Assembly (NCBI GenBank): GCA_937872225.1
Contig: CALMRZ010000055.1
Span: forward strand, 1 to 46,278
DNA: 46,278 nt
Source: an uncultured Spirochaetota bacterium
GTDB lineage: Bacteria; Spirochaetota; UBA4802; UBA5550
Reading direction: 5' to 3'
Positions within the stretch are counted from its first letter, which is position 1. The number at the start of each line of letters is the position of its first letter. Shown here in pieces: positions 5,321-20,863 of the stretch. The position numbers and the translations under genes are program-made. Under the pieces are notes generated by a model that saw only the letters and a program-made list of their open reading frames with translations, was not told where the DNA came from and did no database searches.

Positions 5321-5708
5321 CCGCTGGATGGTGGCCGCTGTATTTTATTTCATTTATTATCATCGGTATGGTGAATAATAAATTCTATTTATGTTGTCCA
5401 TTCAAATTCAAGAATTGAAAGCAAATTTATTGTTCCTGGGAATTAATGAGTGTGTACCGATAACTATCGGTAATAAAAATAGTGCCAAAATCCCTCTTTA
5501 TCTGCTGAAAAAATTTCATTTTTGATCCAGCCCAAACGTTTACTGTAGAACCGGCGCCATACGGAGAATTTATTATTGACATAGTATATACCATGATATA
5601 TATTATATATACCCATGACCGCCTGCAGTAACGGAACGCTTCATCCCGGTGCGGGCGGTCCCTGCCGTACTCTAGTTTCGGCAAATGCAGCGGGGCAAGA
5701 GGTATGTC
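5321..5708. other. Intergenic region between two toxin-antitoxin modules
   Basis: About 390 bp without a convincing gene. It holds one copy of the 18-bp palindrome (5455-5472), an AT-rich stretch with TATATATTATATATA near 5597, and a short GC-rich tract before vapB. Possible promoter sequence for vapBC lies in the AT-rich part, but I could not fix its -35 box. Confidence 0.5.
5455..5472. repeat. 18-bp palindrome TACCGATAACTATCGGTA, copy 1
   Basis: Perfect 8-bp arms TACCGATA/TATCGGTA around AC. It is identical to the copy at 7344 and lies in the gap between two toxin-antitoxin modules. The loop is too short for a terminator, so a protein-binding site or a dispersed repeat is more likely. Confidence 0.8.
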
Positions 5709-7516: not shown

Positions 7517-7717
7517 ATGGCTACGAATCTGGCGATTGATGACGAGCTTATAATCCAGGCTCAGAAATTATGCGGCCTGAAAACCAAGAAGGACACGGTC
7601 ACCCTTGCTCTCAGGGAACTGATTTCCAGGCGAAAGCAGGAAGAGATCCTCAATCTCTTCGGGTCGATAGATTACAGCACCGATTATGACCACAAGAAGC
7701 ACCGGAATCGTGCATGA
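7517..7717 (+). CDS. vapB: VapB-type antitoxin, module 2
   Basis: 66 residues from ATG 7517, which has a strong AAGGAGG 7-8 bases upstream; an upstream in-frame ATG at 7469 lies in the promoter and is rejected. MATNLAIDDELIIQAQKLCGLKTKKDTVTLALRELI is the short VapB form with a ribbon-helix-helix-like N-terminus. The charged C-terminal tail (YDHKKHRNRA) should bind the toxin. It overlaps vapC by 4 bp. Autoregulation is likely through the palindrome at 7475-7494. Confidence 0.9.
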   Translation: MATNLAIDDELIIQAQKLCGLKTKKDTVTLALRELISRRKQEEILNLFGSIDYSTDYDHKKHRNRA

Positions 7718-8124
7718 ACGTCCTGGTCGATACTCCGGTATGGTCGCTGGCCCTTCGAAGAAATGCTAATCTTGATAACGGGTATGTCAGGGAGCTCACG
7801 GAATTAATCCATGAATTGCGCGTCGCCATCATCGGGCCAATACGCCAGGAATTGCTGTCGGGAATCCCGGATCATGTTAAATTCATTATGCTCAGGGATA
7901 CGTTGAAATCCTTCGAAGACATTCCAATTGAAACAGAACATTATGAGCTGGCGGCCGAGCTGTTCAATCACTGCAGGAAAAAGGGGATACAGGGTTCGCA
8001 TGTCGATTTCTTGATCTGCGCGGTGAGCATCAGGAACAGGCTGCAAATCTTCACTCTCGATAAAGATTTTGAAAAATATAAAAAACATATCGGTATTAAA
8101 CTGTACAAGTCAAGAAGCAAATGA
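7714..8124 (+). CDS. vapC: VapC toxin, PIN-domain ribonuclease, module 2
   Basis: 136 residues. The start MNVLVDTPVWSLALRR has the first PIN aspartate, IGPIRQELLSG the conserved glutamate, SHVDFLICAVSI the C-terminal acidic residue, and IFTLDKDFEKY the last motif. It is clearly different in sequence from VapC module 1, so the modules are independent acquisitions and not a duplication. It is ATGA-coupled to its antitoxin. Confidence 0.93.
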   Translation: MNVLVDTPVWSLALRRNANLDNGYVRELTELIHELRVAIIGPIRQELLSGIPDHVKFIMLRDTLKSFEDIPIETEHYELAAELFNHCRKKGIQGSHVDFLICAVSIRNRLQIFTLDKDFEKYKKHIGIKLYKSRSK

Positions 8125-9563: not shown

Positions 9564-9791
9564 AAAGTGAAAACATCCATTACTTTATCAAAAGAACTAT
9601 TAAAAGAAATTGACAGGATAGTAACCAAATCCGGTAACCGATCGGTTTTTATCGAAGAGGCTGTGAAAGCCTATCTGAAGGGAAAAAAACGGCAGCTTCG
9701 CGGATTGAGGGATATGGAAATTATCAATCAATCATCCGGGGATTTGAACAAAGAGTCTGAAGATATCCTGTCATATCAGGTAAAAGTTTGA
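9561..9791 (+). CDS. Ribbon-helix-helix antitoxin
   Basis: 76 residues. [21 protein letters not shown] is the RHH strand and first helix, and SRSVFIEEA-type sequence ([14 protein letters not shown]) is the second helix. This is the usual N-terminal DNA-binding and dimerisation unit of MazE/ParD-like antitoxins. The acidic tail should neutralise the MazF-like toxin encoded next, whose start overlaps its stop. No Shine-Dalgarno is present; translation may be leaderless. Confidence 0.88.
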
Positions 9792-10114
9792 AACGGGGTG
9801 ATCTGTACCGGGTATATAAAGGATCGAAACAGGATCCGAAGAACTGTCGCGTCTTTGCCGTTGTCAGCAGGCAGGCCTTGATCGAGTCGAAATTTTCCAC
9901 CGTCATGTGCGCCCCGGTATACGGCTCATATCTGGGGATTTCCACCCAGGTGCCGGTCGGCACTGATGAGGGGATGAAGCATAACAGCTGCATTTATTGT
10001 GATGAAATTATCAGCATTCCCAAATCGTCTATCTCGGATTACGTGGGAACCCTATCCGATAACAAAGTTGAAGAGTTAAACAGGGCACTTGCCATCGCGC
10101 TGGACATTGAGTAG
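9788..10114 (+). CDS. MazF/PemK-family endoribonuclease toxin
   Basis: 108 residues. [13 protein letters not shown] is the conserved N-terminal loop, [24 protein letters not shown] the core strands, and [23 protein letters not shown] the C-terminal PemK motif. The start is TTG at 9788, overlapping the antitoxin TGA. The family cleaves mRNA at short motifs in a ribosome-independent way; the specificity here cannot be read from sequence. Confidence 0.92.
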
Positions 10115-10930: not shown

Positions 10931-12517
10931 ATGGCAGTCAATGAAAAGTATATCCTGGCGATAGACCTGGGCACCTCGGGCCCGAAGTCCGCCATTATCT
11001 CCACCAATGGAGATGTCATCGACTCCGAGTTCATGGACGTTCCGCTCCAGCTTTTTCCGGGGGGCGGCGCCGAGCAGGACCCCGACGACTGGTGGAACGC
11101 CATCATGGCCACCTCGAAGAAGGTGCTGGCCAGGAAGCTCGTGAAGGCGAGCGACATCGTGGCAGTGTCCTGCACGTCGCAGTGGTCCGGCACGGTCCCG
11201 GTGGACGAGAAGGGAAACCACCTGATGAACGCCATCATCTGGTACGACACGCGCGGCGCCAAGTATATGAAGGACGTGGCCAGGGGCCTCGTCAACGTGG
11301 AGGGCTTCGGTCTCCTCAAGGCCATCCGGTGGGCCTGGCTCACCGGGGCGGTGCCGTCGCCGGCGGGAAAGGACCCCTTCTGCCATATTCTCTACCTCAA
11401 AAATGAGAAGCCCGACATTTACCGCAAGGCCTACAAATTCCTGGAACCGAAGGACTACCTGAACCTGCGCTTCACCGGCAAGTTCTACGCGTCGTACGAT
11501 TCCATCGCCCTGCACTGGGTAACCAACAACCGCGACATCAACAACATCTTTTACGGCAAGAAGCTGATCAAGTGGTCCACCATCGACCCGGCAAAGCTGC
11601 CCGATCTCAAGAAAGCGGTCGAGATCTGCGGGCCCATCAGGCCGGAGATCGCCGACGAGCTGGGCCTTTCCCGCGACGTGGTGGTCGGCATGGGGTGCCC
11701 GGACGTCCACTCCGCGGCGATCGGATCTGGGGCGGTGAAGGACTATGAGGGCCATATCTATATCGGCACTTCATCATGGATCATCTGCCACGTCCCGTTC
11801 AAGAAGACCGACATCTTCAATAACATTGCGTCGCTCCCGTCGGCGCTTCCGGGACGCTACTTCCTGGCAAACGAGCAGGAGACCGCTGGCAAGTGCCTCA
11901 TGTTTCTCCGCGATAACCTGTTCTTCCCCAGGGACCAGGTTTCGAAGGAACCGGCGCCGGCTGGCGTGTACGACCGGTTCAACGCTGCGGTGGCCGAGGT
12001 GCCGCCGGGAAGCCACAAGGTCATGTTCACGCCGTGGCTCTACGGAGAGCGCACGCCCGTCGAGAACGAAACCGTGCGAGGGGCCTTTCTGAACGTGTCC
12101 CTTGACACCACCCGCGCCACCATGGTCCGCGCGGTCTACGAGGGGGTTGCCCTCAACAGCCGCTGGCTCCTGAACTGCGCGGAGAAATTCATAAGGCGGC
12201 CGTTCCCGTATCTCAATTTCATCGGCGGCGGCGCCAATTCCGACGTGTGGAGCCAGATCCTGGCCGACGTCCTCGGCAGGAAGATCCGGCAGGTGAAGGA
12301 CCCGATCACTGCGAACGCCCGCGGCGCGGCGTTCCTCGCGGCCATCTCCCTCGGTTACATAACCGTGGACCAGATTTCCGAGCGGATCGCCATCAAGAAG
12401 GAGTACGAGCCGAATCCCGCGAACAAAAAGATCTATGACGAGCTGTTCGCGGAGTTCGTGAATTTCTACCAGACGAACAAGAAGATGTATCGCAGACTCA
12501 ATAAAAGGGAAGAGTGA
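10931..12517 (+). CDS. FGGY-family carbohydrate kinase, paralogue 1
   Basis: 528 residues from ATG 10931, with GAGG seven bases upstream (a TTG at 10916 would add five residues). N-terminal ATP-phosphate loop ILAIDLGTSGPKSAII, then LFPGGGAEQDPDDWW as in xylulokinases and glycerol kinases. VSCTSQWSGTVPVDEKG and the second domain LNFIGGGANSDVWSQILADVLG (adenosine motif) follow. It should phosphorylate a sugar, polyol or sugar acid. The SPL-like gene starts 3 bp later, so the two are cotranscribed. It is closely similar along its full length to the kinase at 15251, suggesting two successive phosphorylations or two related substrates. Substrate unknown. Confidence 0.88.
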   Translation: MAVNEKYILAIDLGTSGPKSAIISTNGDVIDSEFMDVPLQLFPGGGAEQDPDDWWNAIMATSKKVLARKLVKASDIVAVSCTSQWSGTVPVDEKGNHLMNAIIWYDTRGAKYMKDVARGLVNVEGFGLLKAIRWAWLTGAVPSPAGKDPFCHILYLKNEKPDIYRKAYKFLEPKDYLNLRFTGKFYASYDSIALHWVTNNRDINNIFYGKKLIKWSTIDPAKLPDLKKAVEICGPIRPEIADELGLSRDVVVGMGCPDVHSAAIGSGAVKDYEGHIYIGTSSWIICHVPFKKTDIFNNIASLPSALPGRYFLANEQETAGKCLMFLRDNLFFPRDQVSKEPAPAGVYDRFNAAVAEVPPGSHKVMFTPWLYGERTPVENETVRGAFLNVSLDTTRATMVRAVYEGVALNSRWLLNCAEKFIRRPFPYLNFIGGGANSDVWSQILADVLGRKIRQVKDPITANARGAAFLAAISLGYITVDQISERIAIKKEYEPNPANKKIYDELFAEFVNFYQTNKKMYRRLNKREE

Positions 12518-12520
12518 CCC

Positions 12521-14032
12521 ATGGATATCAAGATCACCACCGTTGAACGCATAATGAAGCGCTTTGACCCGCGCCTGGTCGAGTCCTTCATGAAGCTCCT
12601 GAAATCCTTCTCCCTGACCAGGAACCTGATAAAGTCCCTGGTCCAGAAGGAGGGGACCGCCCTGATGAAAGAGATTGAAGGGGCGCTCAAGCCGTACCGC
12701 GGCTCCGTTCCCGGCTTTGTGGCCCTGCCCGATAAGGGGATGTCCCGGAAGGATATCCTGAACCTGATGAAGGACCTCAGGAAACGCGAGGAGTCGAAGT
12801 GGAAAAAGGGAATGGTCTCCGGCGCCGTGTACCACGGCGACGCCGGCCACGTCGATTTCCTGAACCAGGTATACGCCATCAACTCCCAGGCCAACCCGCT
12901 CCACATGGACGTGTGGCCGAGCATAATCAAGTTCGAGTCCGAGATCGTTTCCATGACCGCCGCCATGCTCGGCGACAGTTCGGCCTGCGGCTCCTTAACC
13001 TCGGGCGGCACGGAAAGCATCCTCATGGCCATGAAGGCATACCGGGACCGGGCCAGGGCGGAGCATGGCATCAGGAAACCGGAGATGATCGTGCCGGTCA
13101 CGGCCCACGCGGCCTTTGACAAGGCGGCCCAGTACTTCAACATAAAGATCATCAAGGTGCCGGTGGATGACCGGTACCGGGCCGACATCGCGGCGGTGAA
13201 GAAGGCGATTTCGCGGCGCACCATCGTCATCGCCGGCTCCGCCCCGTCCTTCCCCCACGGCATGATTGACCCGATCGAGGAACTGTCCGAACTTGCGCGC
13301 AGCAAAAACATAGGCTTCCATACCGATGCATGCCTGGGCGGATTCCTCCTTCCCTGGGTGGAGAAGCTCGGGTACCCGGTGCCGGCTTTCGACTTCCGGC
13401 TTCCCGGCGTCACCTCCATGTCCGCAGACACCCACAAGTACGGGTACGCGGCCAAGGGCACGTCGGTCGTGCTCTACCGCGACACGGACCTCCGCCACTA
13501 CCAGTTCTTCAAGACGCCGGACTGGCCCGGCGGTCTCTATTTCTCGCCGACCATGGCCGGGAGCCGCCCCGGGGCTCTCTCCGCGGCCTGCTGGGCCTCC
13601 ATGGTTTCCATGGGCGAGAAGGGCTATCTGGACGCGGCGAGGAAGATCATGGCCGCCGCGGACAAGATCAGGAAAGGAATCGAGGCCATGCCGGAGCTCT
13701 ATATCCTGGGCGACCCCCTCTGGGTCATCGCCTTTGCCTCGAAAGACCTGAACATATACGGTGTCATGGATTACATGACAAGGAAGGGATGGAGCCTCAA
13801 CGGCCTGCACAAGCCCTCCTGCGTCCATATCTGTGTCACCCTTCGCCACACCCAGCCGGGCCTTGCGGAGCGATTCCTCAGCGATCTCAAGAAGGCCGTC
13901 AGATATGTCCTCAAGAACCCTGACGATAAGGGCGACATGGCCCCCATGTACGGCATGGCGGCTTCATTCCCTGACCGCGGCCTGGTATCCGATGTAATGG
14001 ATATCTACATGGACACGCTGTATAAGGTATGA
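12521..14032 (+). CDS. Sphingosine-1-phosphate-lyase-like PLP-dependent aldolase
   Basis: 503 residues. It resembles eukaryotic SGPL1/Dpl1 and the few bacterial S1P lyases: [50 protein letters not shown] (Asp269 for the PLP nitrogen) and [13 protein letters not shown] (Lys306, the PLP Schiff-base lysine). Known members cleave phospho-amino alcohols by retro-aldol to an aldehyde and phosphoethanolamine. I see no N-terminal membrane anchor like that of the eukaryotic enzymes, but a short amphipathic leader. No sphingolipid genes are nearby; it is cotranscribed with an FGGY kinase, so the substrate may be a phosphorylated amino-polyol or sugar rather than sphingosine phosphate. A related decarboxylase role (group II PLP family) is less likely given the close SPL motifs. 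Confidence 0.85.
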
Positions 14033-14056
14033 GATATGACCTCATCCCCTTGGTCC

Positions 14057-14075
14057 CCCTCTCCCCGGGAGAGGG
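14057..14075. repeat. GC-rich palindromic repeat
   Basis: CCCTCTCCC-C-GGGAGAGGG: 9-bp arms about a single base. Similar GC-rich short repeats occur in intergenic DNA of many bacterial genomes. It follows the SPL-like gene but no T-run follows, so it is not a classical terminator. Confidence 0.6.
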
Positions 14076-14156
14076 CGCGCCGTTGCGGGGTGTGGTGAAT
14101 AGAGATATAGTGATATAATGCTCTGACCCCGGTTTTTGCGTTTATTCCCCTTTAAG

Positions 14157-14174
14157 TACAGATAGTTATCGGTA
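14157..14174. repeat. Palindrome TACAGATAGTTATCGGTA, copy 4 (one mismatch)
   Basis: Reverse-orientation copy of the palindrome seen at 5455, 7344 and 9363, with a single arm mismatch. It lies 53 bp from copy 5, about five helical turns, upstream of tetR. Confidence 0.75.
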
Positions 14175-14209
14175 TCCATATGCTTTCAGTGGTGTCAGAG
14201 TAAAAATGT

Positions 14210-14227
14210 ATCCGATAGTTATCGGTA
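14210..14227. repeat. Palindrome core CCGATAGTTATCGG, copy 5
   Basis: The 14-bp core at 14212-14225 is perfect; only the outermost left pair differs. It lies about 190 bp upstream of the tetR start and could be a TetR-family operator. Confidence 0.75.
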
Positions 14228-14417
14228 TCCCCCAATCTATAATTGCATTAACCTGTTATTTTTTAGACAATTATATAAATATGTACATAATTTATCTGGA
14301 ATTAATTTTTTTATTGTACGATACATATTTTTATTGACTTTTTAATTTAATACCGTTAAATTAACGTATATAAATCAATAATCTGATCAATCGAAAAATA
14401 ATACAGGGATATCCATA

Positions 14418-15053
14418 ATGCCTAAGGCAACCCGAAGCGTGGAAGAAGTTGAAGAGGTGCGCGAAAAGATTCTTGATCGTGCCCTTGAGCTTCTCGTGAA
14501 AGAAGGATTTGAGAGCCTTTCCATGGGCAAGCTCGGCGCCAAGATGAAAATGACCGGCGCCAACCTTTACAACTATTACGCCAACAAGGACGAGCTCCTC
14601 ATAGCGATCCATAAAAAATCGTTCCAGATGATCCACGATAAAATCCGTACGGCCGTGAGCAATGCCTCCGCCCCCCGGGACCGACTCGCCGCGCTGGCCA
14701 AGGCCTTCGTGGAATTCGGCACCGAGCATGTAAATATATACGACATCATGTTCAACAGGCCGATCCGGCAGTACAGCGATTATATCGGGACGCCCCAGGA
14801 AAAAATGTCTTACGAGGAATACCACAACTCGATCAAGGCCCTGGTCTTCGCCGTCACGGTGGTCAGGGATTTCATAGAAACAAGGCCTGAACTGTCGACA
14901 AGCGACCCTAAGTTTTTAACGATAAAATTCCTGAGTGCGCTCCACGGGATCATTTCCCTTAACAACAGCGGCATATTAAAAGAGATGGATGATAATCCCG
15001 ACCTGGTCATGGACGCCATTATTGAAAGCACGATCCGTTCGTTGACGGACTGA
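14418..15053 (+). CDS. TetR-family transcriptional regulator
   Basis: 211 residues. The N-terminal HTH reads REKILDRALELLVKEGFESLSMGKLGAKMKMTGANLYNYYANKDELLIAIHKK, the typical TetR pattern ending in Y-x-Y-F/Y-x-x-K-x-x-L. The C-terminal ligand domain has the WHG-like (TetR_C_33) flavour, but I saw no diagnostic ligand residues. It sits between the two halves of the kinase/SPL/RLP cluster on the same strand and probably controls it in response to substrate or product. Two palindromes upstream (14157, 14210) are candidate operators. Confidence 0.9.
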   Translation: MPKATRSVEEVEEVREKILDRALELLVKEGFESLSMGKLGAKMKMTGANLYNYYANKDELLIAIHKKSFQMIHDKIRTAVSNASAPRDRLAALAKAFVEFGTEHVNIYDIMFNRPIRQYSDYIGTPQEKMSYEEYHNSIKALVFAVTVVRDFIETRPELSTSDPKFLTIKFLSALHGIISLNNSGILKEMDDNPDLVMDAIIESTIRSLTD

Positions 15054-15110
15054 CGGGCGGCCATGCGTGCCGGGTTGAATCAGATACCAAGCAACAAGGA
15101 GATGAAGAAC

Positions 15111-15206
15111 ATGAAGACAACACAACTTATCAAGGCATTCTTCCTTATTATTAAAAAGACGATCTGGTATTTACTGAACCCGGTAAAGATGAATCACAGC
15201 AATTAG
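15111..15206 (+). CDS. 31-residue small protein with one hydrophobic helix
   Basis: AAGGAG at 15096-15101 sits nine bases before ATG 15111; the peptide begins MKTTQLIKAFFLIIKK, continues TIWYLLNPVKMNHSN and ends at TAG. A single amphipathic/hydrophobic helix with lysines suggests membrane association. It lies between tetR and the second kinase on the same strand and has a better ribosome site than most genes here. Not recognised. It could be a leader peptide for the downstream operon instead of a stable protein. Confidence 0.45.
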   Translation: MKTTQLIKAFFLIIKKTIWYLLNPVKMNHSN

Positions 15207-15250
15207 TAAATCCCTGTATCCGACGAAACTAGAATCTAAAAGGTGCTGAT

Positions 15251-16792
15251 ATGACAGGTAGGATGAAGTACGTACTCGCGGTCGACCTGGGAACATCGGG
15301 CCCCAAAACGGCCCTGATATCGATTCACGGCGACGTGGTGACGGACGCCTTCGAGGAGACGCCGATCATCCTCCTTCCCGGCGGCGGCGCGGAACAGGAC
15401 CCCGAGGGGTGGTGGAAGGCCATTATGTCAACGGCGAAGCAGGTCCTCGCCCGTCGGCTGGTGCCTGTCGATGACATCATCGCGGTGAGCGTGACCACCC
15501 AGTGGTCAGGCACCGTGCCGGTAGATGAGAACGGCCATCACCTGATGAACGCAGTTATTTGGATGGACTCCCGCGGAGCCGAGCCCCTCAAGGAAAAGCT
15601 GAACGGCTTTCCGAAATTCGAGGGATACCCCCTGACGCAGGTCTTCACCTGGCTGCGCCTCACGGGAGGAGCGCCGGCCCTCTCCGGCAAGGACTCCATC
15701 AGCCATATCGTATGGATCCAGAAAAACTGCCCGGACATATACCGGAAGACCCACAAGTTCCTCGAGCCGAAAGATTACGTCAACATGCGCCTGACGGGCA
15801 AATTCGCCGCGACCTTCGACTCGATCCTGCTCCACTGGGTCACCGACAACCGGGACCCCGACAATGTCGACTACAGCGACAAGCTCATACGGATGGTCGG
15901 CATAGACCGGGACAAGCTTCCCGACCTGATCCGCGCCGTCGATGTCCTGGGGCCCCTGAAGAAGGACGTTGCCACGGAGCTCGGGCTCAAGCCCGGGACG
16001 CCGGTCATCGGCGGCACGCCGGACGTCCAGTCCGCCTGCGTCGGTTCCGGCGCCGTGCGGGACTACGAGGGCCATGTCTATATCGGCACCTCGTCCTGGA
16101 TAACGGCCCACGTTCCCTTCAAGAGGACCGACCTCCTCCACAGCATGGGCTCCTTCCCGAGCCCGATACCGGGGCGGTACCTGATCCTCACCGAGCAGGA
16201 GTGCGCCGGCAAGTGCCTCATGTGGCTCAGGGACAACGTCCTCTACCACAAGGACGAGCTGCTGCAGCAGGAAAAGGCGCCGGACATCTACAAGGTCATG
16301 GACAGGATCGTGTCCCGCGTCCCGGCCGGGGCCAACAACGTCATTTTCACCCCCTGGCTCTACGGCGAGCGCACCCCGGTGGAGGACCGGCACATCCGGT
16401 CGTCCCTCTTCAACCTTTCCCTGGAGAACACCAGGGAGGACATCGCCCGCGCGGTGTTCGAGGGCGTTGCCCTGAACCAGAAATGGCTCCTCACCTATGT
16501 CGAGAAATTCATGAAGAGGCCCTTCCAGGCCCTCAATTTCATCGGCGGCGGGGCCAACTCCGATGTATGGTCGCAGATACTGGCCGACGTGATGAACACA
16601 ACCATCCGCCAGGTGAAGGACCCGATCTTCTCCAACGCCCGCGGCGTCGCCTTTCTGGCCGCCCTGGCCCTGGGTCATATCACCGTGGAGGACATCTCCC
16701 GGCATATCAAGATAAAGGCGGAGTACAGGCCGAACCCGGACCACCGGAAGATTTACGACAGCCTGTTCCGCGAGTACGTGAACCTGTATTAG
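15251..16792 (+). CDS. FGGY-family carbohydrate kinase, paralogue 2, ended by an amber codon
   Basis: 513 residues from ATG 15251, with AAAGGTG upstream; an internal Met at 15263 begins the conserved MKYVLAVDLGTSG. Same motifs as paralogue 1 (LPGGGAEQDPEGWW, SGTVPVDENG, FIGGGANSDVWSQILADVM), so the same fold and phosphotransfer role on a related substrate. After VNLY the frame meets TAG, then continues open as TQKKACARINSV to a TAA at 16868-16870. Paralogue 1 reads VNFYQTNKKMYRRLN at this place, so the TAG appears to replace a CAG. The lost tail is about 25 residues beyond the last fold motif and the enzyme may remain active. First gene of the kinase-aminotransferase-RLP operon. Confidence 0.88.
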   Translation: MTGRMKYVLAVDLGTSGPKTALISIHGDVVTDAFEETPIILLPGGGAEQDPEGWWKAIMSTAKQVLARRLVPVDDIIAVSVTTQWSGTVPVDENGHHLMNAVIWMDSRGAEPLKEKLNGFPKFEGYPLTQVFTWLRLTGGAPALSGKDSISHIVWIQKNCPDIYRKTHKFLEPKDYVNMRLTGKFAATFDSILLHWVTDNRDPDNVDYSDKLIRMVGIDRDKLPDLIRAVDVLGPLKKDVATELGLKPGTPVIGGTPDVQSACVGSGAVRDYEGHVYIGTSSWITAHVPFKRTDLLHSMGSFPSPIPGRYLILTEQECAGKCLMWLRDNVLYHKDELLQQEKAPDIYKVMDRIVSRVPAGANNVIFTPWLYGERTPVEDRHIRSSLFNLSLENTREDIARAVFEGVALNQKWLLTYVEKFMKRPFQALNFIGGGANSDVWSQILADVMNTTIRQVKDPIFSNARGVAFLAALALGHITVEDISRHIKIKAEYRPNPDHRKIYDSLFREYVNLY

Positions 16793-16891
16793 ACCCAGAA
16801 AAAGGCGTGCGCGCGGATCAATTCCGTCAAAACGCCCGGCGCCTGCACGCCGGCGCCGCAATTTCAGTAATATGAAGGAGGCAGCTGCAGC

Positions 16892-18295
16892 ATGGAATAC
16901 AATGAAATAATGTCGCGGTTCAAGAATGTCCTATCCATACCGCCCAAAGGATTACCGGCGGATGCGATGGAAAAGTACCGCGCGATGTACACGGAAAAGA
17001 ACAGGAAGTCCCTGGAGATGTTCGAAAAGGCGAAGAGCGTCATCCCCGGCGGGGTCGAGCACAACCTGAGCCAGAACCACCCCTTCCCGGTGGCAATGGA
17101 CCGCGCCAAGGGCTACCGGGTCTGGGACGTCGACGGCAACGAGTACGTTGATTACCTGATGTGCGGAGCGCCCATCATACTCGGCCATGCCTTCGAACCG
17201 CTGGACGAAAAGATCATCGACATCATCAAGACAAAGGGACCGGCCACGGGCCTCACCTCGGAGTACGAGATCATGGCCGCCCAGGAGATCGTCAACCACA
17301 TGCCGGCGGTCGAGATGGTCCGGTTCCTCCAGTCGGGCACCGAGGCGGACATGGCGGCTCTCCGCATCGCCCGGGCGTACACCAACAAGCAGAAGATCAT
17401 CAAGATCGGCGGCAGCTACCACGGCTGGTCTGACCAGATGGTCTATTCGCTCCACGTTCCCAATTCCGGTCCCCTCTATTCGAAGGGGATCACGAAGGAA
17501 AGCTACGCCCATATCATTGACGTGAAGCCGAACGACTTCGACGGCCTGGAAAAGGCCTTCAGGGACAACGCCGATGACGTGGCCGGGGTCATCGTGGAGC
17601 CGATCGGCGGAGAGTCAGGCGCGCATCCGGTCCATCCCGACTGGAACAGGACCATGAGGGCCCTGTGCGACCAGTACAAGTCCCTCCTCATTTTCGACGA
17701 GGTGGTCACCGGCTTCAGGCTCGACATGGGTGGCGCCCAGAAGCATTTCAACGTCATGCCTGACATTACCGTCCTCGGCAAGATCATCGGCCACGGCTAT
17801 CCCTCCTGCGGCGCCGTCGCCGGCCGGAAGGAAGTCATGAAGGTATGCGCCGGCGGGCTGGGCGAAAAGATATACGTCGGCGGAACACTGGCGGCGAACC
17901 CGATCACCACGGCGGCCTGCTACTACGCCATCAAGTACATGGTGGAGCACGACGCTCAGCAGAAGGCCGCGGCCTACGCCGACCGCCTCACGAAGGCGAT
18001 GAACGATCTCTTTGCCACGCGGCAGGACCTGGGATTCTTCGTCTACAATTTCGGTCCCATCATGCACTACGTGACAACGGGATTCTTCTCGGTGGATGTT
18101 TCCGCCCCCGACGCGCTGAAGCAGGTCCTTACCCGCAAGGCGGTCGCGGACAGCTACCAGATCGTGACCTCGGCCCTGGGGCTCTGCTCCCTGGCCGGAA
18201 CGAGGATGTACACCTGCATGCAGCACGATGACGAAGCGCTGAAAAAGACCCTGGATATCTGGGAGCAGCTGCTCTCGGCGATACCGAAGGGTTAA
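16892..18295 (+). CDS. Class III PLP aminotransferase, glutamate-1-semialdehyde-aminomutase-like
   Basis: 467 residues after a strong AAGGAGG. SVIPGGVEHNLSQNHPFPVAMDRAKGYRVWDVDGNEYVDYL is the GSA-aminomutase-type N-terminus. VRFLQSGTEADMAALRIARAYT and SYHGWSD bind the cofactor phosphate, LLIFDEVVTGFR contains the PLP-pyridine aspartate, and ITVLGKIIGHGYPSCGAVAGR holds the Schiff-base lysine. It either transfers an amino group or shifts it within the substrate. It is not expected to be HemL, because no tetrapyrrole genes are near and it sits in an operon with an FGGY kinase and a RuBisCO-like protein. The substrate is probably a phosphorylated or oxo carbon compound of that pathway. Confidence 0.87.
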   Translation: MEYNEIMSRFKNVLSIPPKGLPADAMEKYRAMYTEKNRKSLEMFEKAKSVIPGGVEHNLSQNHPFPVAMDRAKGYRVWDVDGNEYVDYLMCGAPIILGHAFEPLDEKIIDIIKTKGPATGLTSEYEIMAAQEIVNHMPAVEMVRFLQSGTEADMAALRIARAYTNKQKIIKIGGSYHGWSDQMVYSLHVPNSGPLYSKGITKESYAHIIDVKPNDFDGLEKAFRDNADDVAGVIVEPIGGESGAHPVHPDWNRTMRALCDQYKSLLIFDEVVTGFRLDMGGAQKHFNVMPDITVLGKIIGHGYPSCGAVAGRKEVMKVCAGGLGEKIYVGGTLAANPITTAACYYAIKYMVEHDAQQKAAAYADRLTKAMNDLFATRQDLGFFVYNFGPIMHYVTTGFFSVDVSAPDALKQVLTRKAVADSYQIVTSALGLCSLAGTRMYTCMQHDDEALKKTLDIWEQLLSAIPKG

Positions 18296-18330
18296 GATAA
18301 ATTTTTATTAATCAAAAGAAGGAGGCGTAT

Positions 18331-19665
18331 ATGAGTAAGGAAAAAAATGTGTGCGAACCGATAGATCTCTATTCCGATAAGCCGATAGCGATTCCCGAGG
18401 CGATCGACATGGAGAATCATGTGATCGCCACCTACTGGATCCAGGCCGACAGGGGCATGGATATGTCGATAATCGGTCAGGTACTTGCCGTTGAGCAGAC
18501 TACCGGGACCTGGACGCCGGTGCCGGGAGAGACCCCGGCGATACGGTGCAAGCACGTGGCAAAGGTAATCGGCGTGTACGAGGCGCCCTACTATGAATAT
18601 GCGGTGCCGGCGGATGTTACCACGCGGCAGTACATATTGCAGATCGCCTTTCCCTCGATCAATGTCGAGGACCAGCTCCCGATGATGCTGACCGCGGTCA
18701 TCGGCAACATCTCCATGGTGCCCAATTTCAAGCTCCTGGACATCAGGCTCCCCAAGGCCACCCTGGACCAGTACAACGGGCCGAAGTTCGGCATCGACGG
18801 CTGGTGGAAGGCCCTGGGCCTGCAGAAGGGGCGTCCCCTTCTCAACAACATGATCAAACCCTGCAGCGGTTATCCGCTGGAAGTGGGCGCCGAGCTCTTC
18901 AGACAGGCGGCCCTGGGCGGCTGCGACGTCATCAAGGACGACGAGCTTATCGCCAACATGCGCTACAACGACGCGGTTGAGCGGGTCAAGACCTACATGA
19001 AGATAGAGAAAGAGGTATTCGAGGAGACCGGCGAGCACACCCTGTATACGGTAAACGTCACCGACCGTCTGCCGCGGATGTTCGACCTGGCCAAGCGGTG
19101 CATCGACGCCGGCGCCAACGCCATGATGGTCAACTACCTGGCGGTCGGCCCCGAGGCGATGCGCGCCCTGGCCGACGATCCGAACATCAATGTGCCGATC
19201 CTGGCCCACATGGACGTGGCCGGAGCCTACTACATGTCGCCGAATCAGGGGATTGCATCGCCTGTCGTGTTCGGCAAGTTTTCGCGGCTCTGCGGCGCCG
19301 ACTCCATCGTGCTTCCCTTCTCCATGGGGGGCAAGGCTTTCTACATGCACGACCGCTTCATGGCCACGTGCCGCAACCTGACCTATCCGATGGGGAACCT
19401 GAAACCCACCATGCCGATGCCGTCTGGCGGGATCACGCCGCAGAACGTGAACGACATCATGAACGCCCTCGGCAGGGATATCATGATCGGCTCCGGCGGC
19501 GGGGTCCATGCCCACCCGATGGGACCGCGGGCCGGCGCCCGGGCTCTCCGCCAGGCCATCGACGCCTCCATGCAGTGCATCAAGCTGGAGGATTACGCCA
19601 AGGACCACGAGGAACTGGGCAGGGCCATCGGCACATGGGGCAAGAAGACGGATTTCAAACTCTAA
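18331..19665 (+). CDS. RuBisCO-like protein (form IV)
   Basis: 444 residues after a very strong GAAGGAGG. The RuBisCO large-subunit order is intact: VEQTTGTW (Glu55, Thr60, Trp61), IGNIS (Asn126), MIKPCSG (Lys176), IKDDE (Lys202, Asp204, Glu205), AHMDVAG (His293), FGKF (Lys316), PSGG (Ser365) and GSGGGVHAHP. By eye the carbamate lysine and Mg ligands are kept, but the positions of RuBisCO Lys177, Arg295 and His327 are Cys178, Met294 and Ala309. It is therefore not a carboxylase but probably an enolising, isomerising or transcarboxylase-type enzyme on a phosphorylated oxo compound. Known RLPs act in methionine salvage and in apionate catabolism; the neighbours here fit neither. Last gene before a terminator. 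Confidence 0.88.
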   Translation: MSKEKNVCEPIDLYSDKPIAIPEAIDMENHVIATYWIQADRGMDMSIIGQVLAVEQTTGTWTPVPGETPAIRCKHVAKVIGVYEAPYYEYAVPADVTTRQYILQIAFPSINVEDQLPMMLTAVIGNISMVPNFKLLDIRLPKATLDQYNGPKFGIDGWWKALGLQKGRPLLNNMIKPCSGYPLEVGAELFRQAALGGCDVIKDDELIANMRYNDAVERVKTYMKIEKEVFEETGEHTLYTVNVTDRLPRMFDLAKRCIDAGANAMMVNYLAVGPEAMRALADDPNINVPILAHMDVAGAYYMSPNQGIASPVVFGKFSRLCGADSIVLPFSMGGKAFYMHDRFMATCRNLTYPMGNLKPTMPMPSGGITPQNVNDIMNALGRDIMIGSGGGVHAHPMGPRAGARALRQAIDASMQCIKLEDYAKDHEELGRAIGTWGKKTDFKL

Positions 19666-19680
19666 TCCGGTTTTCACATC

Positions 19681-19712
19681 CTGCGGGGGACCTGGTCCCC
19701 CGCAGGTTTTTG
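19681..19712 (+). terminator. Rho-independent terminator after the RuBisCO-like gene
   Basis: Perfect 11-bp stem CTGCGGGGGAC/GTCCCCCGCAG with a 3-base CTG loop (19681-19705), then GTTTTTG. It closes the kinase-aminotransferase-RLP operon. Confidence 0.92.
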
Positions 19713-19759: not shown

Positions 19760-20863
19760 ATGATAAGACCTGTGTTTCTTCATGATGACCGGCGTCTTCC
19801 CCTGGCATGGGCGCCATGGTTTTCCCATGAGTACATCAATTACTACGCTGTCCAGGCCCTGCCGGTGCTGATGGCGCTGCCGCCGGTCCCGGTGCGGCAG
19901 GATTCCGGTCCCGATGACGAAGCGTGGCCTCCGGGTCCAAACCATGTTGACCTGTACCGGGAGCGCTACACCGATGCGCGCCGCCTGGATCCGCTCCGGT
20001 CCTTTGATTACGCGGCAAAGAACGGGGATTTCAGCAGGGAGGCGCCCCTCCATGCGATCATCGAGCCGTGGAAGGTTCTGGTCGGATACAGCACCGAGCC
20101 GGACCTTAACCTTGATTGCGACCTTGTTCTCGACAAACGCCAGAAACTCACCGGCGGCTCCCACGGCTGGCGCCACATGGAGTTCCGTGTCTTCGGGATG
20201 AAGATCGGGATTGTCCGTGAGTCGTTACGGCATCACCGTGACCGGGCGCGGAAGGCCTTTAATGACGGCAATGATTACTGGGGATGGCGGTACCTTTCGC
20301 GCTGCACCCATTACCTCGCGGACATGGGGAATCCGTTCCATGTCAAGGCCCTGCCGGCGATGTATCTTCTCAGGCACATCGCCTCGGCCCGGGACCTCTT
20401 CACGACCGTGTCGGCGGTTCATAAAAGCTACGAGCTGTACGTCGAGCGAAGGTTTAGGGAAGGATTCGCTCCCTTCGGTAATGCCCTGGCCCGGGGGGCC
20501 GCGGAGGGGATGCGGTCCGGGACCGGTGACGAACGGGCCCTGGCCGGGTATACGGGAAGGGCTGCGAAGCGCCTCGATCCGATATTCAATTTTTTCCTTA
20601 ACAGCTATGGAAGCGGGCTCGTTGACGTGTTCAGGCACGGGGGTTCCGCGGGACGCGAGGACGCGTCGTTTCTGGTCAGCCGGTGCGCAGTCGAAGCGTC
20701 CCGGATCATCTTCAGCGGTTCCGGGTCATCCGCCCTGGCTGACCTTGACGGGATTACCGCGGACATCCTCCGCGATGTGGGGGCCATGCTGGGGGCGCTT
20801 CTTTCCGGGTTTTCCGGAGAGCGGGCAGTCGCCAGAGAAGGCGCGTTCCGGCGTTCCCTGTGA
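19760..20863 (+). CDS. Zinc-dependent phospholipase C / S1-P1-nuclease-like protein
   Basis: 367 residues from ATG 19760; GTG 19772 is an alternative with better spacing from AGAGG. Metal-site motifs of the Zn-PLC/P1 fold are visible: APWFSHE near 18-24, GGSHGWRHMEF (His135, His139) and RCTHYLADMGNPFHVKAL (His184, Asp188, His194). The latter matches the H-x-x-x-D-x-x-x-P-x-H pattern. No classical signal peptide precedes the first motif, although the family is usually exported and the N-terminal Trp is often exposed by cleavage. It may hydrolyse phosphodiesters of lipids or nucleotides. It is separated from the RLP operon by two hairpins, so a link to that pathway is only suggestive. Confidence 0.65.
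   Translation: MIRPVFLHDDRRLPLAWAPWFSHEYINYYAVQALPVLMALPPVPVRQDSGPDDEAWPPGPNHVDLYRERYTDARRLDPLRSFDYAAKNGDFSREAPLHAIIEPWKVLVGYSTEPDLNLDCDLVLDKRQKLTGGSHGWRHMEFRVFGMKIGIVRESLRHHRDRARKAFNDGNDYWGWRYLSRCTHYLADMGNPFHVKALPAMYLLRHIASARDLFTTVSAVHKSYELYVERRFREGFAPFGNALARGAAEGMRSGTGDERALAGYTGRAAKRLDPIFNFFLNSYGSGLVDVFRHGGSAGREDASFLVSRCAVEASRIIFSGSGSSALADLDGITADILRDVGAMLGALLSGFSGERAVAREGAFRRSL

Follow-up and report, generated by a model that had tools for sequence, protein, structure and literature searches.

Which substrate could require two FGGY-family kinases, a relative of sphingosine-1-phosphate (S1P) lyase, an aminotransferase and a RuBisCO-like protein (RLP) in one gene cluster? The question is raised by a locus on contig CALMRZ010000055.1 of an uncultured Spirochaetota bacterium, of which 46,278 nucleotides, here called the window, were analyzed. 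A preliminary description of the window had read six genes as one cluster for a catabolic route, in which a polyol or sugar acid is phosphorylated, rearranged or aminated, cleaved and processed by the RLP. Our answer is a different one. The locus consists of two separable modules, A (K1 and SPL) and D (TetR, K2, aminotransferase, RLP and NX1), and with a probability of about 0.62 these are two modules of an undescribed route that degrades sphingoid bases, which carry the 2-amino-1,3-diol backbone of sphingolipids. Gene content, conservation and module structure are observed, and from them we infer all substrates and reactions. The features of the cluster are the following.

10931..12517, plus strand: K1, FGGY-family kinase of module A (PF00370/PF02782), proposed sphingoid-base kinase
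12521..14032, plus strand: SPL, S1P lyase relative (structure-database sequence match; site motifs for pyridoxal 5'-phosphate, PLP)
14033..14417, no strand: AT-rich intergenic region that separates module A from module D and contains promoter-like matches
14418..15053, plus strand: TetR-family regulator of module D (PF00440, PF13305)
15251..16792, plus strand: K2, FGGY-family kinase of module D, with an in-frame stop earlier than in homologues
16892..18295, plus strand: class-III PLP aminotransferase (PF00202), resembling glutamate-1-semialdehyde aminomutase (GSAM), proposed deaminase of a base 1-phosphate
18331..19665, plus strand: RLP (PF00016/PF02788), proposed enolase of a 1-phospho-2-keto-3-hydroxyalkane
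19680..19706, plus strand: intrinsic-terminator-like hairpin, 12-pair stem with 10 G-C pairs, then T5
about 19760..20863, plus strand: NX1, Zn-phospholipase-C/P1-nuclease-like, no Pfam match, start codon uncertain

All six genes of the preliminary description are found on the plus strand, and Pfam and NCBIfam scans returned the families it had named. Its paralogous kinases, which flank SPL and tetR, are 58% identical to each other, and the terminator that it placed behind the RLP gene is present as a pattern. The short spacing that it reported holds for K1/SPL (3 bp) and aminotransferase/RLP (35 bp) but not throughout, as the gaps SPL/tetR, tetR/K2 and K2/aminotransferase measure 385, 197 and 99 bp; the AT-rich 385-bp gap 5' of tetR contains four promoter-like matches. 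A seventh gene, NX1, lies just 3' of the terminator-like hairpin and had been overlooked; together with a second locus of this genome, which contains a ceramidase, it goes beyond the earlier finding. The K2 frame stops about 25 codons short of its homologues and stays homologue-like beyond the stop; relatives have intact copies, and the early stop could be an assembly error or real.

The division into modules is seen in a comparison of 148 related genomes, the own genome included. In what follows, G-numbers denote the compared genomes (G000 is the window's own), L-numbers loci and C contigs. In G004, which belongs to the same genus, the full run K1-SPL-TetR-K2-GSAM-RLP-NX1 is present in this order. 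G015, from another genus of the same family, has K2-GSAM-RLP-NX1-TetR, with no K1-SPL within 40 kb around the RLP locus. K1-SPL pairs that have neither a GSAM nor an RLP match in their vicinity are present in G001, G005, G007, G089, G095, G107, G136 and G144, and second pairs of this kind are found in G000 and G004. A single kinase-SPL-kinase-GSAM-RLP pathway was therefore rejected, as K1-SPL and K2-GSAM-RLP exist apart from each other, and for the same reason it seems that similar kinase products can take alternative ways, one through SPL and the other through GSAM-RLP.

A survey of GTDB species genomes for the RLP used two peptide patterns and therefore detects close relatives only. It yielded 21 named loci, all from metagenome-assembled genomes, with RLPs that are 81-88% identical to the window copy. 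By name, one locus belongs to Spirochaetes and 20 to Syntrophaceae, Smithella, Smithellaceae, Desulfatitalea, Desulfobacterales or Deltaproteobacteria, and several end at contig ends; the relatives of Smithella among them are inhabitants of sediments. A K2-type kinase lies just upstream in 19 loci, and further neighbors are an aminotransferase (18), NX1 (15, directly beside the RLP as also in G004), TetR (14), a major facilitator superfamily (MFS) transporter (13), a class II aldolase (10), a porin-like gene (5), an amidohydrolase (5) and a ceramidase (2). The preliminary description had asked whether the genes co-occur elsewhere. They do, and the grouping exceeds chance, as K2-GSAM-RLP appear in this order in 18 of the 21 loci, which come from two phyla. 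Among the 148 related genomes only three, the own included, contain an RLP this similar, and the identity of the next-best match is 35%. The system is real and conserved but rare, and it occurs in two phyla. Between Spirochaetes and Deltaproteobacteria the identity of K2 is 67-75% (L077-L097), as against the 81-88% of the RLP, and horizontal transfer with a strong constraint on the RLP may perhaps account for this. L094 and L095 contain RLP and NX1 without a K2-aminotransferase pair upstream.

What the kinases work on is best approached through their partners. SPL is, by its sequence, a true full-length relative of the solved S1P lyases, as residues 51-503 match 3mad (S1P lyase) with 630 bits and the match to 4q6r (S1P lyase 1) reaches 450.4 bits. 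Its PLP-site motifs are VTAHAAF at 193, TDACLGG at 268, DTHKYGY at 303 and AGSRPG at 346. The PLP lysine and the His/Asp/Cys/Ser set, which the accessible part of PMC5234717 names for Burkholderia S1P lyases, are present when mapped by motif, not by structure. The aminotransferase scores 310.8 bits with the hemL model TIGR00713, below the cut-off of 527.3, and is not assigned as HemL.

At least 51 matches of the K2 kinase family (E up to 1e-75) were scored in 31 of the 148 genomes; this is a lower bound, as not every initial candidate in G000 and G081 was scored. An amine-processing gene adjoins 42 of the 51, namely SPL in 14 cases, a class-III aminotransferase in 21 (the RLP-type enzyme in three, a related one in 18) and a saccharopine-dehydrogenase-like gene in seven. 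Three of the latter seven genes were scanned, all matching PF03435, and the other four were assigned by similarity (65-75%). Five kinases have only an MFS, aldolase or ceramidase gene nearby (G010, G016, G001:C13, G043:C624 and G027:C59, the last close to a contig end), and near four (G004:C12, G015:C112, G081 and G088) no match to any of the six partner families was found. The saccharopine-dehydrogenase-like/FGGY kinase pair forms a further, unassigned module, present at seven loci in seven genomes (L132, L138, L139, L166-L169) and with TetR nearby in five. A related gene stands in L083, where the order is kinase-RLP-saccharopine-dehydrogenase-like, the dehydrogenase-like protein being 49% identical to the Spirochaetota ones, and where 21 kb contain no match to either aminotransferase query. 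We read this as a swap of deaminating enzymes, seen in one of the 21 loci, which argues that the GSAM-like enzyme removes an amino group. FGGY genes beside NX1 in L087, L094 and L095 were considered as partners and not counted, being 35-37% identical to K1/K2; those of L094 and L095 adjoin a frame that by eye looks like a GlpD-like dehydrogenase.

The connection to lipids comes from ceramidases. Contig C16 of the own genome carries a ceramidase, a kinase, a class II aldolase, an aminotransferase and an MFS transporter in that order; G003, G004 and G005 have the same set, and G010 has the arrangement ceramidase-MFS-kinase. The ceramidases in RLP loci are those of L080 (two copies) and L092. Three genes were scanned (L070, L080, L092), and all three are predicted to be full-length neutral ceramidases, with 493.6-511.8 bits for PF04734 (cut-off 32.1) and 161-177 bits for PF17048. 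The kinase is present in 16 of 21 genomes with a ceramidase versus 15 of 127 without (p 3e-9), and inside the order in 13 of 15 versus 10 of 31 (p 0.001), kinship being uncontrolled in both comparisons; the ceramidase family is absent from all 14 named control genomes. Ceramidases stand in sister loci of both phyla, which seems to favor a lipid amino alcohol as substrate over the polyol or sugar acid first suggested. The outline of that suggestion survives: an FGGY kinase would phosphorylate the substrate, PLP enzymes would deal with its amino group, and the RLP would use an oxo compound that carries phosphate. The single pathway does not survive. SPL, aminotransferase, dehydrogenase and ceramidase as partners would have a 2-amino-1,3-diol as common denominator.

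Five RLP loci (L079, L082, L088, L089, L093), none of them with a ceramidase, contain an amidohydrolase (Amidohydro_3 in the scanned L079 copy), whose N-terminus looks by eye like the twin-arginine type in L079, L088 and L089. Our guess is that it could replace the ceramidase as an alternative N-deacylase. Sulfatases (PF00884) lie near the RLP cluster in L024 (17496-19289) and L083 (1698-3245, 6701-8149 and 14911-16452), and sulfated lipids could be a source.

Several observations weigh against sphingoid bases as substrates. Any ceramidase match is found in only 4 of the 21 RLP genomes, within the locus in 2, and G015 has none. A ceramidase lies near a family kinase in just 5 of the 21 ceramidase genomes; in G016, G027, G095 and G107 the two are far apart or on other contigs, and G116 has a ceramidase but no such kinase, while the ceramidase contigs of G144 are partly too short to show neighbors. 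Four of the five Spirochaetota ceramidase loci come from one genus. FGGY kinases are also best known for acting on sugars. In the kinase tree, K1, K2, the kinases of the saccharopine-dehydrogenase-like pairs and the G083 kinase form one clade (100/100) and the C16-type kinases a separate one (100/100), with four E. coli kinases and a Vibrio one outside on long branches. Two kinases from the side of glycerol metabolism (Kx) join the K1/K2 clade at 85/88 and separate it from the kinases linked to ceramidases; with this weakly supported position, one substrate common to all kinases is not shown.

It could be argued that kinases, aminotransferase, aldolase and RLP use a water-soluble aminopolyol or amino sugar, with ceramidases that are incidental or feed a side branch only. 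The best model for both K1 and K2 is indeed xylulokinase (272.7 and 277.4 of 380.25 bits), FucA-like aldolases usually act on sugar phosphates, no ceramidase match exists in 17 of the 21 genomes with the RLP, and the top model of the MFS neighbor is a D-galactonate transporter, with 63.2 of 395 bits. However, of the 12 NCBIfam sugar-kinase models listed per kinase none reached its cut-off, 14 kinase-family matches are paired with an S1P lyase relative, and the ceramidases stand within loci of both phyla. We consider an aminopolyol possible but doubtful.

If sphingoid bases are the substrates, the K1/K2-family kinases would phosphorylate the primary hydroxyl group at C1. Judging from its family, SPL would cleave the K1 product to phosphoethanolamine and a fatty aldehyde, and the class-III aminotransferase would deaminate the K2 product to a 1-phospho-2-keto-3-hydroxyalkane. 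The C1-C3 pattern of this compound would resemble that of ribulose bisphosphate and methylthioribulose-1-phosphate, and the RLP may enolise it at the RuBisCO metal/carbamate site. The C16 sister module would serve 4-hydroxylated bases. With a hydroxyl group at C4 the deaminated product is a ketose-1-phosphate analogue, which a FucA-like aldolase could split to dihydroxyacetone phosphate (DHAP) and a fatty aldehyde; lacking this group, aldol cleavage is impossible, which makes an enolising RLP a sensible alternative. DHAP is made by the class of L-fuculose-1-phosphate aldolase, and this enzyme is the nearest to the aldolase encoded in L092, one of the RLP loci (108.9 bits). The aldolase ALDO2 has the class II aldolase domain PF00596 (156 bits) and remains below the cut-off of TIGR01086 (116.7 of 400.25 bits).

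The residues of the RLP fit such a reaction. Both RuBisCO large-chain domains exceed their cut-offs (PF00016 151.3 bits, PF02788 41.9 bits), and the protein was aligned with form I, form II, MtnW and OiaX sequences and one archaeal sequence that we take to be form III; RuBisCO residue numbers and roles follow the usual convention. E60, T65, W66, N123, K175, K201, D203, E204, H294, S379, G381, G403 and G404 are kept, with the carbamate lysine and the metal-binding Asp and Glu (K201, D203, E204) in VIKDDE at 200-205. The metal, carbamate and C1-phosphate residues are thereby retained, while the second phosphate site has lost R295 (now Met) and H327 (now Val), Cys replaces K177 and Met replaces T173. 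No lysine aligns with K334, but all five aligned copies of this RLP share Lys335 at the adjacent position. At K334, K177, T173, R295 and H327 the RLP therefore departs from a bona fide ribulose bisphosphate carboxylase, and the loss of R295 and H327, which is common to MtnW, suits a substrate with one phosphate.

Enolisation might be followed by isomerisation, as described for the Rhodospirillum rubrum RLP in the available part of PMC6302742, by phosphate loss, or by carboxylation and cleavage. In the last case the RLP would be a lipid carboxylase that adds CO2 at C2 and cleaves C2-C3 to yield 3-phosphoglycerate and a free fatty acid. The retained E60, T65, W66, N123, K175 and H294 and the invariant lysine next to the K334 position allow for this chemistry, but the missing K334, K177 and T173 weigh against it, and we think that it is unlikely. 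Even less credible is that the RLP works in methionine or 5-deoxysugar salvage and has the aminotransferase and kinases as unrelated neighbors. 2,3-Diketo-5-methylthiopentyl-1-phosphate enolases are among its nearest solved relatives, and MtnW models are its highest scorers; these scores, however, stay below the cut-offs (328.3 of 409 and 281.8 of 513.6 bits), the RLP carries Asn (N123 position) where MtnW has a lysine that we take to be catalytic, and K2 and GSAM accompany the RLP in the 18 loci named above. With the OiaX model NF042437 the RLP reaches 177.2 of 700 bits, and both the methionine-salvage and the isoapionate role were rejected on the curated cut-offs. Another RLP pathway is possibly encoded on a Vibrio nigripulchritudo plasmid (L152, 4788-7449), where an RLP adjoins an FGGY kinase, a thiamine pyrophosphate-enzyme pair and transporter genes.

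NX1 matches neither a Pfam nor an NCBIfam model at E 0.001, and no PDB sequence up to E 1. Its H184-x3-D188-x5-H194 and H221-x3-E225 are invariant in 12 of 12 aligned sequences, and we take HxxxD-x5-H plus HxxxE to be the zinc-ligand spacing of the Zn-phospholipase C/S1-P1 nuclease family. In searches with an AlphaFold (AF2) model (predicted template modelling score 0.80, mean predicted local distance difference test 72), the top 28 structural matches are all of the phosphatidylcholine-phospholipase C (PC-PLC) type or P1/S1 nucleases, with Z 14.3-9.8 against 5.4 for the next one, noting that helical models can score high by chance. The best match is PC-PLC (Z 14.3), and Foldseek matches are weak (E above 0.2). 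No signal peptide is apparent by eye. NX1 may be an intracellular phosphoesterase, and as a guess it might remove the phosphate.

The modules could also serve to detoxify free sphingoid bases or to tune the cell's own sphingolipids instead of feeding carbon. In the part of PMC11893366 at hand, sphingoid bases are said to inhibit bacteria and sphBC of Pseudomonas aeruginosa to promote sphingosine metabolism, and the regulator, porin-like and ceramidase genes beside some RLP loci resemble the SphR regulon as outlined in the accessible text of PMC3900636. Yet the number of modules per genome (five kinase matches in G000) and predicted products that would enter central metabolism suit catabolism. 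No G000 match reaches the cut-off of the serine-palmitoyltransferase-like TIGR01825 (best 347.6 of 535.4 bits), so that own sphingoid synthesis is not supported; this argument is a weak one, since 13 of 14 control genomes also match, two of them over the cut-off. In sum, we regard a role in defense or lipid tuning as improbable and favor degradation of sphingoid bases.

The palindrome CGATA-N2-TATCG occurs in four exact copies in the 46 kb (5458, 7347, 9366, 14213) and with one mismatch at 14160. A TetR operator at 14160/14213 was considered and dropped because exact copies also lie away from the cluster, at 5458, 7347 and 9366; the palindrome is exact in 9 of 165 loci compared and perhaps represents a dispersed element. 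PIN-domain and PemK/MazF-like genes lie just 5' of the cluster (7714-8124 and 9788-10114).

Sphingolipids are common in eukaryotes and are made by Bacteroidetes. Their bacterial degradation at the level of the sphingoid base is largely open, and a route from FGGY kinase via deamination to aldolase or RLP would supply testable enzymes. If our reading is true, it adds lipid kinases of a new type, gives RLPs a further function and extends RuBisCO-fold chemistry to a lipid substrate; should the RLP carboxylate, RuBisCO-type carboxylation would exist outside sugar metabolism. What P. aeruginosa makes from sphingosine is not yet known according to the available part of PMC11893366. A literature search that covered mostly titles and abstract openings and few subscription journals returned nothing that joins RLP or FGGY kinases with sphingoid-base catabolism, and no paper pairing RLP with sphingosine or with FGGY; of those on sphingosine and FGGY none concerns sphingoid-base catabolism by title, one dealing with a P. 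aeruginosa glycerolipid regulator.

Among known systems, the S1P lyase route of eukaryotes and some bacteria likewise uses a kinase and then PLP-dependent cleavage of the base 1-phosphate. It has no counterpart of the aminotransferase, RLP and class II aldolase modules, and its kinase is of the diacylglycerol/sphingosine-kinase type, whereas the kinases here are FGGY-type and belong to another superfamily. MtnW and the R. rubrum methylthioribulose-1-phosphate isomerase are also RLPs that act on a ketose-like compound with one phosphate (both as far as the accessible part of PMC6302742 describes them), and Bacillus MtnW is followed by the phosphatase MtnX. In the alignment, MtnW has lost R295 and H327 as the window RLP has. 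The window RLP differs from MtnW by Asn at the lysine position, the kept E60 and T65, other operon partners and scores below the cut-offs. To our knowledge, the described OiaX/OiaT isoapionate pathway includes no aminotransferase step. Its RLPs likewise belong to a catabolic operon and act on a phosphorylated oxo compound, again following the available part of PMC6302742. The SphR regulon of P. aeruginosa (cerN, sphA, sphBCD) likewise places a ceramidase, genes that metabolise the base and a predicted porin under a common regulator, but with a periplasmic oxidase/cytochrome and a threonine-aldolase-like enzyme, and no kinase or RLP is among the regulon genes given in the accessible portions of PMC3900636 and PMC11893366. 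The dihydrosphingosine kinase PG1348 of Porphyromonas and the ceramide kinase CpgB of Caulobacter are bacterial sphingoid-lipid kinases too, and CpgB, unlike the FGGY kinases here, has the GGDG motif of the sphingosine-kinase family (PMC9045371 and PMC10331486, in the parts available).

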